A stretch of DNA of 46,732 nucleotides from Candidatus Tayloriibacteriota bacterium (lineage in GTDB: Bacteria; Patescibacteriota; Minisyncoccia; Phycocordibacterales; CAIZLB01): assembly GCA_018883165.1 (NCBI GenBank), contig VEQN01000006.1, positions 1 through 46,732 on the forward strand, in the 5' to 3' direction. Below are positions 28,787 to 46,732 of this stretch, piece after piece. Every line of letters begins with the position of its first letter. The first letter of the stretch is position 1. The position numbers and the translations under genes were made by a program. The notes under the pieces were generated by a model. That model did not search any database and had not been told where the DNA came from. It was given only the letters and a program-made list of their open reading frames with translations.

Positions 28787-29299
28787 TTATGTATTAAAAA
28801 TTTGTATTGTTTTTTGTACCTCATCCTGAATACCATCAATGCATTCATAGCGCATCACCTCTTCTTCATTTACCCAAGCGTAATCTGTAAAACTCCCCTC
28901 CTCAACCACAACCTCACCACTCTTGTACTTTGCAGCAAACTTCACAAGCACCACAGGTGTCTCATCAGGTCGTATGAACGCGACACTGTTTAGATATATA
29001 AAGGGCTGCTCCACATCTACACCAGATTCCTCTTTCGTCTCTCGTACAAGCAAATCTTCTACGGCATTCTCATAGTCTAGAATATCACCATTGACCCGTG
29101 TCGGCTTATCAATTGGCAAATCTTTCCATTCAAGCTTTCCACCAACCACACCATATTTACCAGGATGTGCTTTTTCTCTCATATCCCTTTTAAGAATGAG
29201 ACATCTCTTGTCACTTTCACGGTACACAACAACATTTGCTACGAAATAAAATAGCTTGTCTTGTTTAGCATTATCTATACTAATTTTTTGTGCTGGCAT
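28787..29299 (-). CDS. Nudix hydrolase with an insertion in the Nudix box
   Basis: From the ATG at 29299 this is a 170-residue Nudix protein: strand FVANVVVYRE, LILKRDMREKAHPGKYGVVGG, then the RETKEESGV half of the Nudix box (86-94). In the canonical box 13 residues separate the first Gly from that Arg. Here Gly54 and Arg86 are 31 residues apart, an insertion of about 18 (DLPIDKPTRVNGDILDYE region), and the first box Glu is displaced by one. The metal-binding REXXEE core is intact, so activity on a nucleoside diphosphate derivative remains possible. The start at 29329 would overlap msrB; the GGTGGGT before 29299 is a good ribosome site. Confidence 0.82.
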   Translation of the reverse strand: MPAQKISIDNAKQDKLFYFVANVVVYRESDKRCLILKRDMREKAHPGKYGVVGGKLEWKDLPIDKPTRVNGDILDYENAVEDLLVRETKEESGVDVEQPFIYLNSVAFIRPDETPVVLVKFAAKYKSGEVVVEEGSFTDYAWVNEEEVMRYECIDGIQDEVQKTIQIFNT

Positions 29300-29309
29300 A
29301 TACCCACCA

Positions 29310-29684
29310 TTATCCCAAACATATACCATTCATACAATATCGCCTGTGGGTCTCTGTTGGACCATCATCAAATACATGGCCTAAATGCGAGCCACACGAT
29401 GCACATAGCACCTCAGTCCTAATCATTCCACGACTTGTGTCAACAACCTCTTCTACCGATCCAGGTATTGCTTGGTCAAAACTTGGCCACCCTGTGCCAG
29501 AATCAAACTTAGCATCTTCTTTGAAGAGCGGGTTGCCACAGGCAACGCATGAATACACACCATTCTCAGCGGGTTTTAATTTTGAACTAAACGGAGCCTC
29601 AGTTCCCTTCTCCCGTAACACCTTGTACTCTTCTGGTGTGAGCATCTTTTTCCATTCTTCATCTGTGCGTGTGATGTGTTTCAT
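29310..29684 (-). CDS. msrB: Peptide-methionine (R)-S-oxide reductase
   Basis: The 124-residue MsrB reduces methionine-R-sulfoxide in proteins. It has the zinc-binding pairs CVAC (46-49) and CASC (94-97), the GTGWPSF substrate motif, GSHLGHVFDDGP and the catalytic Cys117 in RRYCMNG. The usual N-S after the catalytic Cys motif (CxNS) is N-G here, a minor deviation. The resolving Cys may be Cys122 (GICLG), which is not typical. It is 3 bases past proS and followed by the Nudix gene. Confidence 0.94.
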   Translation of the reverse strand: MKHITRTDEEWKKMLTPEEYKVLREKGTEAPFSSKLKPAENGVYSCVACGNPLFKEDAKFDSGTGWPSFDQAIPGSVEEVVDTSRGMIRTEVLCASCGSHLGHVFDDGPTETHRRYCMNGICLG

Positions 29685-31219: not shown

Positions 31220-32365
31220 TCAGAGTGTAGAGAGCATGTAGTTTGAGTACATTGGGTCATCAGTCACTTCTGATGCGACTTTCACAAACGGTGGGATTAC
31301 AACAGGGGCACTCATATCACTCTTTTCAGGTCTTTCAACCTCAAGCAAGATGAGGTTCTTGTGTTTTTCAGGCTCCATGAAGAAATCAATCTCATAGAAG
31401 CCACCATTCCAATGAAATGATATGCGCTTCTTTCGCACAGGACTCCTTGTCTGATCTCGCAGAGCAAGAAATTCATCATATTCTCGACGAGATATTATCC
31501 TCTCATCTTCCAGTGACTCCCCTGATGATATATGTTTTTTGTGCGTATAGTAGTAGGAGATACCGAAAGAACTTTCTCTCCTTCTTACACGCACCACTTC
31601 ATCCGGAGCGTCAGTATGTAGATATGTTTGAGTAATATCCGCCACACTATGGAGCTCAGTGATTGAAGACAAATCAACCGAAGAGACCAAGAACTTTCTT
31701 TCTCGTTCAATCGGAACCGGGTCACCAATCTGCGCCGAAACCTCAACATAGAGCTTCCGAAGCTTGGTTTCAAAATCTGTATCATTCCCAAACAATCTAA
31801 AGTGCGGATGACTGTGCCACACCTCTTGAGTCCTACAATCTAGTAGTTGTGCACCTGCTACATCCTCAGTCCGAGACTCATTGTTTTTTGTGGTATACAA
31901 ATCAGGACGACCGACAGCAACGGACTGCAAAAAGTACACCCCATGATATCGATATTCAGAAAGTTCCACACGGGTATACCCAAAGCCATCCAAAACCTCA
32001 GTGAATTCATCGGAGCTCACATACGCTTCACCATCAAGAAGTCCCCGATCACAGAACACAACAACTTTCTTCCCCATGTCTCGATATTGCATAGCAGTCT
32101 GAAGAAACAATTCTTCTTGCATTAAGGCATACTGTAATATCAATTTCTGGAACTCTTTGGGTGGAAGGTGACTTTCTCCGTGAAAAACACCTGCACCAAT
32201 GATGTTCGTAGCAGCTTCAGGCACAATGAGTACCACATACCCTCGTGCTTCAAATTCTTTCTTCAAAAGCGCAAGGCCTGATGTTTTTCCTCCACATGGT
32301 CCACCAGTGATGGCGAACACATATATATCTTTACCAATTTGTGTAATATTTGTATTTGTTTTCAT
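31220..32365 (-). CDS. AAA-type nucleotide kinase fused to a CYTH domain
   Basis: The 381-residue protein joins two enzymes. Residues 1-~205 form a P-loop domain: Walker A GGPCGGKT (21-28), VLIVPEAATNII, VVVFCDRGLLDGEAYV (Walker B-like), the AAA_28/NadR-like group. Residues ~215-381 form a CYTH (triphosphate tunnel) domain with the ERERK motif (near 219), VVRVRRRES, YYYTHKKH and FYEIDFF strands, and LLEVERPEK. CYTH enzymes hydrolyse triphosphates such as thiamine triphosphate or tripolyphosphate. A fused kinase plus tunnel enzyme suggests nucleotide or polyphosphate turnover; the substrate is unknown. It is monocistronic and divergent from the HTH-Nudix gene. Confidence 0.8.
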   Translation of the reverse strand: MKTNTNITQIGKDIYVFAITGGPCGGKTSGLALLKKEFEARGYVVLIVPEAATNIIGAGVFHGESHLPPKEFQKLILQYALMQEELFLQTAMQYRDMGKKVVVFCDRGLLDGEAYVSSDEFTEVLDGFGYTRVELSEYRYHGVYFLQSVAVGRPDLYTTKNNESRTEDVAGAQLLDCRTQEVWHSHPHFRLFGNDTDFETKLRKLYVEVSAQIGDPVPIERERKFLVSSVDLSSITELHSVADITQTYLHTDAPDEVVRVRRRESSFGISYYYTHKKHISSGESLEDERIISRREYDEFLALRDQTRSPVRKKRISFHWNGGFYEIDFFMEPEKHKNLILLEVERPEKSDMSAPVVIPPFVKVASEVTDDPMYSNYMLSTL

Positions 32366-32426
32366 GGTTCAATTTCGGGTTATGTTTCCGATCCACATAT
32401 AGTATGGAAGAAATATGACATATTTC

Positions 32427-32461
32427 TAGTCTAACCCATTTGAGTCGAATATGTTAGACTA
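32427..32461. promoter_or_regulatory. Palindromic operator candidate between divergent genes
   Basis: The perfect 9-bp arms TAGTCTAAC (32427-32435) and GTTAGACTA (32453-32461) are separated by 17 bases. The right arm ends 10 bases before the HTH-Nudix start codon. Arms 26 bases apart centre to centre would suit a dimer binding two or more helical turns; a hairpin in RNA is another reading. Confidence 0.6.
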
Positions 32462-32470
32462 AACCACAAT

Positions 32471-33139
32471 ATGCACACCATCGAAGAACATGTTCTCAGA
32501 CACCTCACTCGATATTCAGAAGCCACATTTAGCCAGATGAAACCAAAGCTCATTGAGAGTAACGTATTTACATATCACCTCAAGAAACTCATTACTGCAG
32601 GGTATATAAAGAAAACAAAGCAGATATATTCCCTCAGTGCCAAAGGTAAGCAATTTGCAGATACCATCTCACATGAAAACTTTACCCCGAGGATCCAACC
32701 AAAGATTGTGACTCTCATCGTACTTGAATATCAAAACAAATATCTGTTGTACAAGAGAGACAAAGAGCCGTTTGTAGGGTATGTTGGTTTTCCGTATGGA
32801 AAGATTCATCTTGAAGAGCGTGTAGCAGAAGCTGCGAAGCGAGAACTCATTGAAAAAACTGGTTTCGAAACAGAACTCGTACACAAAGGTGATATGTATA
32901 TCACCGCACACAGTGAAGTTGAGCTCATCAGTCACATGCTTTGCCACATTTTCTACAAAAAAATATCCAAAGCTGAATATACAAAAAGTCTTTTGAAACT
33001 TCACAGCACCTCGTTCTGGTCTGAGATACAAAAGAATGGAGATACCAAATATATTCCAGGTGTCATGCAAATACTTAAGAACTTAGCTAAACACAAGGGT
33101 AAAAAGTTCTTTTTTGCTGAATACTTCCTTAATGTATAA
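32471..33139 (+). CDS. Winged-helix/Nudix fusion, probable autoregulated protein
   Basis: The 222-residue protein has an N-terminal winged-helix domain (about 3-65: EEHVLRHLTRYSEATFSQM, VFTYHLKKLITAGYIKKTKQIYSLSAKG) and a C-terminal Nudix domain (about 76-205). The Nudix box has the form G-x5-E-x7-RELIEKTG; the usual second Glu of EE is Lys, and most metal ligands are kept. NrtR-type regulators have Nudix first and HTH last; here the order is reversed. It may sense a nucleotide-sugar or NAD derivative and act as a regulator. A palindrome directly upstream (32427-32461) could be its own operator, and the AAA-CYTH gene is divergent from it. Confidence 0.82.
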   Translation: MHTIEEHVLRHLTRYSEATFSQMKPKLIESNVFTYHLKKLITAGYIKKTKQIYSLSAKGKQFADTISHENFTPRIQPKIVTLIVLEYQNKYLLYKRDKEPFVGYVGFPYGKIHLEERVAEAAKRELIEKTGFETELVHKGDMYITAHSEVELISHMLCHIFYKKISKAEYTKSLLKLHSTSFWSEIQKNGDTKYIPGVMQILKNLAKHKGKKFFFAEYFLNV

Positions 33140-46394: not shown

Positions 46395-46660
46395 TTAAGA
46401 AAAATTTAAATCCATAGATGCTTCTAATATATATTTTCTGAGATTAAGGTCATGAACATATACATACGTACCGTAAATTCCACGAGTAAGTAAAGTCTTA
46501 TATATATTTAGTATATATGATTTCAATTCATCCGGACTAGACACGGATCTTTTACCGTTGATATCTTCGTATCGATCCTTATGAATGATAATCTCATGAT
46601 TCTCAGGATCATATGATATTTCTGGCCCAATTATGACACCGGTGTAATTTAAATCATATC
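46395..46660 (-). CDS. C-terminal end of a DUF2075 ATPase-like protein (partial)
   Basis: On the minus strand an open frame runs from the window edge to a stop at 46397-46395. It reads GPEISYDPENHEI, LKSYILNIYKTLLTRGIYGTYVYVHD and LRKYILEASMDLNFS. The N-IYKTLLTRGI-G-YVYV ending is the mark of DUF2075/Schlafen-type DNA-binding ATPases. Only the last ~80 residues are present. The reading enters the terminal inverted repeat at 46651, and nothing beyond 46660 can be trusted as gene sequence. Confidence 0.7.
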
Positions 46661-46732
46661 TAAATTACACCGGTGTCATAATTGGGCCAGAAATATCATA
46701 TGATCCTGAGAATCATGAGATTATCATTCATA
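46580..46732. repeat. Perfect 72-bp inverted repeat at the contig end
   Basis: Arm 46580-46651 and arm 46661-46732 are exact reverse complements of each other, with a 9-base loop at 46652-46660. The repeat ends exactly at the window end and the left arm lies within the DUF2075 coding region. This is most like a fold-back or chimeric read at a contig end. A true hairpin end is a remote alternative. Confidence 0.95.

Follow-up and report, generated by a model that had tools for sequence, protein, structure and literature searches.

The window analysed here, the whole stretch of 46,732 nucleotides, is one contig of a 749-kb genome that is 99.7% complete (G000). It contains a gene for a winged helix-turn-helix (wHTH)-Nudix protein, hereafter the regulator, and a divergently oriented gene for an AAA_28-CYTH protein, with the following features at and between them:

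31220..32365, minus strand: divergent AAA_28-CYTH gene, 381 aa, with Walker A motif GGPCGGKT and CYTH-type motif ERERK
32425..32433: left flanking site TCTAGTCTA, 15 bp from the core site, including most of the left arm of the dyad initially annotated here
32427..32461: nine-base dyad TAGTCTAAC-17-GTTAGACTA, within a 35-bp imperfect palindrome
32440..32448: candidate core operator site TTGAGTCGA, consensus TTGA-S-TCAA, centre 32444 (G32444)
32455..32463: right flanking site TAGACTAAA, 15 bp from the core site, including most of the right arm of that dyad
32471..33139, plus strand: wHTH-Nudix regulator gene, 222 aa, ATG at 32471

The nine-base dyad that the initial annotation had described at the start of the regulator gene is present exactly and is the sole match in the window when up to 3 mismatches are allowed, whereas none of 100 shuffled sequences yielded a match. 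It does lie just before the ATG, but its last base is 9 bases from it, not 10 as had been stated. Perfect 9-bp dyads are in themselves common in the window (77 arm pairs with spacers of 3-30, many of them lying within a single longer repeat). This one is beyond chance because it belongs to a larger palindrome of 35 bp, centred on 32444 with 14 of 17 pairs matched, and because the centre is conserved in homologues. The arms of the dyad are the outermost elements of a larger array, the strongest site of which, TTGAGTCGA, sits in the dyad's spacer with the ATG of the wHTH-Nudix gene 31 bases beyond it. Elsewhere in the window, a second Nudix gene, without an HTH, is found 3 kb from the regulator (28787-29329), near genes for MsrB and prolyl-tRNA synthetase, and a 75-bp inverted repeat (46580-46732; 99% complementary, 3-base loop) lies exactly at the contig end, possibly representing an assembly end effect or the terminus of an element.

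Pfam searches and an AlphaFold model, the latter using four orthologues and having a mean pLDDT of 80, place the winged helix at approximately residues 1-68 of the regulator and the Nudix domain at approximately residues 76-222, confirming the proposal that the domain order is opposite to that of NrtR. In the model, helices span residues 3-15, 20-23 and 30-42, a wing follows at 46-55, and the Nudix fold begins at residue 78. The Nudix domain is closest to MTH1/MutT, both in a PDB sequence search and by fold, and fold comparison also revealed resemblance to NrtR with ADP-ribose and to AraR. Neither a zinc ribbon nor an ATP-cone was found in the regulator using Pfam.

Searches covering whole genomes and a genome collection identified eight orthologues, referred to as A-type: those of the window, G105, G009, L038 (G398), L039 (G399), G207, G208 and G099, two of which come from Paceibacterota and Kaiserbacteria assemblies. 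Identity to the window protein is 39-48% for six of them, G099 being outside this comparison, and the seven intact A-type proteins form one clade (support 100/99) apart from the wHTH-Nudix clades B and C. An alignment-based scan of genome contigs recovered four loci, two of them also reached by the whole-genome search; a single-protein query of these contigs returned no matches, and no relatives of the regulator were detected in the viral contigs searched. Class-wide and second relatives searches produced no further A-type orthologue, only B or C members or genomes already seen. The sample is small, standing at eight, because carriers are few in the order. In G099 (L006 / L024), a frameshift within the Nudix box breaks the wHTH-Nudix reading frame in two, reflecting either an assembly error or a broken gene.

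The Nudix box of the window regulator, GKIHLEERVAEAAKRELIEKTG, has a Lys where the second Glu of the EE pair would stand. The resulting signature RE-x-x-EK (REL-x-EK-x-G), in which a metal-ligand Glu is changed to Lys, is common to all seven intact A-type proteins, none of which contains the complete box Gx5Ex7REUxEExGU, and the same change is carried by the reading frame of the frameshifted G099 gene. Given this replacement of the metal-binding Glu, hydrolysis by A-type proteins is doubtful, and by analogy with BtAraR they probably act in sensing and not in catalysis. The other two subfamilies share the wHTH-Nudix order and each forms its own clade. Subfamily B retains the Nudix box intact, and its genes are preceded by another palindrome, TAGTGAAG..CTTCACTAGACA (at loci L005, L104 and L105 in the form TAGTGAAG-nnnn-CTTCACTAGACA, weaker in L105), whereas in subfamily C the box is degenerate in another way. 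Members of subfamily C at L007-L010, L025 and L044 display a GGVVxKGE box and have lost a Nudix glutamate in a different way, and at L009, L010 and L044 the gene adjoins a similar gene of ~280-300 aa.

TTGA-S-TCAA or a near form of it is located upstream of all eight A-type genes, and in seven of the eight the core starts 31-55 bases 5′ of the ATG. When every 4-N-4 palindrome was considered in an unbiased search, the best over the eight upstream regions was TTGA-N-TCAA, with 2 mismatches in total; the minimum across 1,000 dinucleotide-shuffled control sets was 7. The core is accompanied, on one side or both, by weaker copies 15 bp away, centre to centre, and second sites at exactly this distance reach 6.0 of 8 matches, where the spacings tried average 3.1 (sd 0.73). 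Arrays with 15-bp spacing read as follows:

Window: TCTAGTCTA-TTGAGTCGA-TAGACTAAA
G105: TTGAGTCAA-TTGACTCAA
L039: TCGACTCAA-TTGACTCAA
G207: TCTAGTCAA-TTGAGTCAA
G208: ACTAGTCTA-TTGACTCAA-TTGAGTGAT

A double site with zero mismatches was found once in 397 genomes of the order, before the G105 orthologue. In G208, a stretch of ~200 bp from upstream of the regulator, with the operator in it, recurs 2 kb away behind a pair of radical SAM genes (L097:5878); being part of a duplicated block, this second array was left out of the counts. Conservation of the core supports an operator-like element at the gene's own start, as had been anticipated. The nine-base arms, by contrast, find no support as the recognition unit: they are not kept as a dyad upstream of homologues, and the conserved sequence lies in the spacer.

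The same observations bear on whether the dyad could form an RNA hairpin in the leader instead of a DNA operator. The window sequence indeed folds well as RNA (-12.2 kcal/mol, z -4.7), but the orthologues keep the 9-base core and not the long palindrome, the window gap contains no detectable terminator-like T tract, and a -10-like hexamer found 6-9 bases before the ATG in several orthologues suggests that transcription begins downstream of the array. We regard a leader hairpin as very improbable. Similarly improbable is the notion that TTGACTCAA is a plain -35 promoter element. Although it includes TTGACT, near TTGACA, what is conserved is the full 9-base palindrome together with its 15-bp copies, the distance to the likely -10 varies, at ~20-37 in the four clearest cases, sites occur in both orientations, and thyA genes of relatives are devoid of the site. 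Inspection of the window gap revealed no sigma-70-type promoter.

Genes lying divergently across the operator encode AAA_28-CYTH in the window, AAA_28 alone in G009, CYTH alone in G099, and thymidylate kinase in L038. Judging by coordinates, these four partners start 70-75 bases from the core, with the start codon of the window AAA_28-CYTH gene at 74. The expected co-occurrence with an AAA/CYTH gene was recovered, in whole or in part, in three of the eight genomes. Of 148 relatives, 19 encode an AAA_28-CYTH relative, and most of the 19 lack the regulator. In G009, dCMP deaminase, dUTPase (dut), thymidylate kinase (tmk) and AAA_28-CYTH genes form a row in this order on the same strand (L141:468-3460); other AAA_28-CYTH genes are near NrdR-like and PyrE-like genes (L153) or an Hpt-like gene (L152), as judged by eye. 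The window protein matches AAA_28 with 67.8 bits (Pfam cut-off 27), its Walker A motif reading GGPCGGKTS, and CYTH with 22.6 bits, slightly under the cut-off of 23.2, with ERERK present; the G099 partner is called CYTH from its match to the CYTH half of the window protein, Pfam alone giving no match. Gene neighbourhoods suggest a role for AAA_28-CYTH proteins in nucleotide metabolism, and we infer that this role may be in nucleotide salvage or clean-up.

The AAA_28 family also includes the NadR kinase domain, which raises the question of whether the regulator is an NrtR-like sensor of NAD or ADP-ribose controlling an NAD-salvage kinase, the divergent gene then encoding a ribosylnicotinamide kinase. 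NrtR proteins operate by such logic (PMC4666351), and the fold resemblance noted above fits it. However, MTH1/MutT came first in the PDB sequence search, where the AAA protein had no NadR match, the domain order of the regulator is reversed, and the operator precedes nrdAB, thyA and tmk, with no NAD gene found beside the operator sites seen. Control of NAD salvage is, in our assessment, quite unlikely.

Occurrences of the operator away from the regulator were located by pattern searches and by reading stretches of sequence. There are seven exact TTGASTCAA sites in G000, two before nrdA-nrdB and the other five inside genes. The former are 272 and 203 bases upstream of the nrdA start, 69 bp apart, with nrdB next after nrdA; a small opposite ORF overlaps one of them with its 5′ end, and the nrdA evidence comes from this one upstream region, that of G000. 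G398 and G399 contain five exact sites each, two of the five being in the regulator/thyA cluster, and a second perfect site is present ~80-85 bp before thyA in both L038 and L039, where the regulator is clustered with genes for thymidylate kinase, dUTPase or dCTP deaminase, DHFR and thymidylate synthase. Upstream of thyA in relatives, G000 and G009 included, 0 of 26 regions have the exact site. Target genes thus vary by genome: nrdAB in G000, thyA in two genomes and tmk in one. In G009, an exact TTGACTCAA falls inside the end of tmk (L141:1948), possibly by chance.

Could the array be purely local, acting on itself and on any gene that happens to be divergent, with the nrdA and thyA sites due to chance? 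The partners are certainly diverse (AAA-CYTH, AAA, CYTH, tmk, Nudix, a radical SAM pair, unknown or none), and the nrdA and thyA sites are single, without 15-bp neighbours or arrays. Nevertheless, a stray exact site is expected with a probability of ~0.001 per genome within 200 bp upstream of thyA, where it was seen in two genomes, and of ~0.003 for the 300 bp before nrdA; furthermore, nearly all intergenic exact sites seen in four genomes are at these genes. A strictly local autoregulator hence seems unlikely. With the same sign before nrdAB, thyA and tmk, the circuit looks like one for DNA-precursor supply, not for one odd fusion gene. The P-loop/triphosphatase fusion, originally put forward as the target, does share the operator, but that assignment was too narrow. 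The underlying idea of a nucleotide-related regulator appears sound on sequence grounds, albeit with a different recognition unit and target set.

Collectively, the best explanation, which we consider probable, is a Nudix sensor that regulates its own gene, is probably non-catalytic and governs dNTP supply. Comparison of the sequences shows a conserved operator with 15-bp periodicity, its placement before dNTP genes, the domain order and the Glu-to-Lys change. The N-terminal winged helix would bind TTGA-S-TCAA sites, whereas the C-terminal MTH1/MutT-like Nudix domain, having lost one catalytic metal ligand, would probably serve as a nucleotide sensor. From the three-site array at 32425-32463, the regulator most likely represses its own promoter and that of the divergent AAA_28-CYTH gene, and it may also control deoxynucleotide supply genes, namely nrdAB in G000 and thyA and tmk in other genomes. 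By default we assume repression, not activation, since the core either overlaps the likely promoter or lies next to it. We propose that a nucleotide, most likely a dNTP or a related compound (as guessed from its type of Nudix domain and its targets), alters DNA binding by the regulator, so that precursor synthesis would track demand. More tentatively, the protein might exemplify a new class of dNTP-sensing transcription factors in Patescibacteria, in which a catalytically dead MTH1-like Nudix domain, placed C-terminal to a winged helix, would sense a deoxynucleotide directly and, partly in place of NrdR, coordinate ribonucleotide reductase, thymidylate synthesis and a new AAA_28-CYTH enzyme for nucleotide salvage or triphosphate clean-up; we see this as a possibility, not as the expected outcome.

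The proposed circuit bears on how Patescibacteria with very small genomes control their DNA-precursor supply, and the open-access literature searched yielded no wHTH-first Nudix regulator or comparable dNTP regulon. A defined operator together with its candidate regulator makes the circuit directly testable and gives bacterial AAA_28-CYTH proteins a first functional context, that of nucleotide metabolism. In bacteria generally, ribonucleotide reductase is regulated by NrdR, which consists of a zinc ribbon and an ATP-cone. The regulator described here would likewise place ribonucleotide reductase genes under nucleotide-level control, but it is built from a wHTH and a Nudix domain, and TTGASTCAA is unlike NrdR boxes. 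The 8-oxo-dGTP hydrolases MTH1/MutT provide the nearest Nudix domain by sequence and fold; in contrast to them, A-type regulators carry a Lys in place of a metal-binding Glu. With the NrtR family, including SoNrtR and BtAraR, the regulator shares the coupling of a winged helix to a Nudix-like sensing domain, as well as palindromic operators at its own and target promoters. In AraR, an enzymatically inactive Nudix domain serves ligand binding, and in BtAraR the ligand on this inactive domain shifts the DNA-binding domain (PMC4666351). However, the NrtR family has an N-terminal Nudix domain and a C-terminal winged helix, and its targets concern NAD or sugars, whereas here the Nudix domain is closest to MTH1/MutT, the operator is different, candidate sites are seen at nrdAB, thyA, tmk and AAA_28-CYTH, and the order is the reverse, which would add a Nudix sensor of reversed domain order to those already described.
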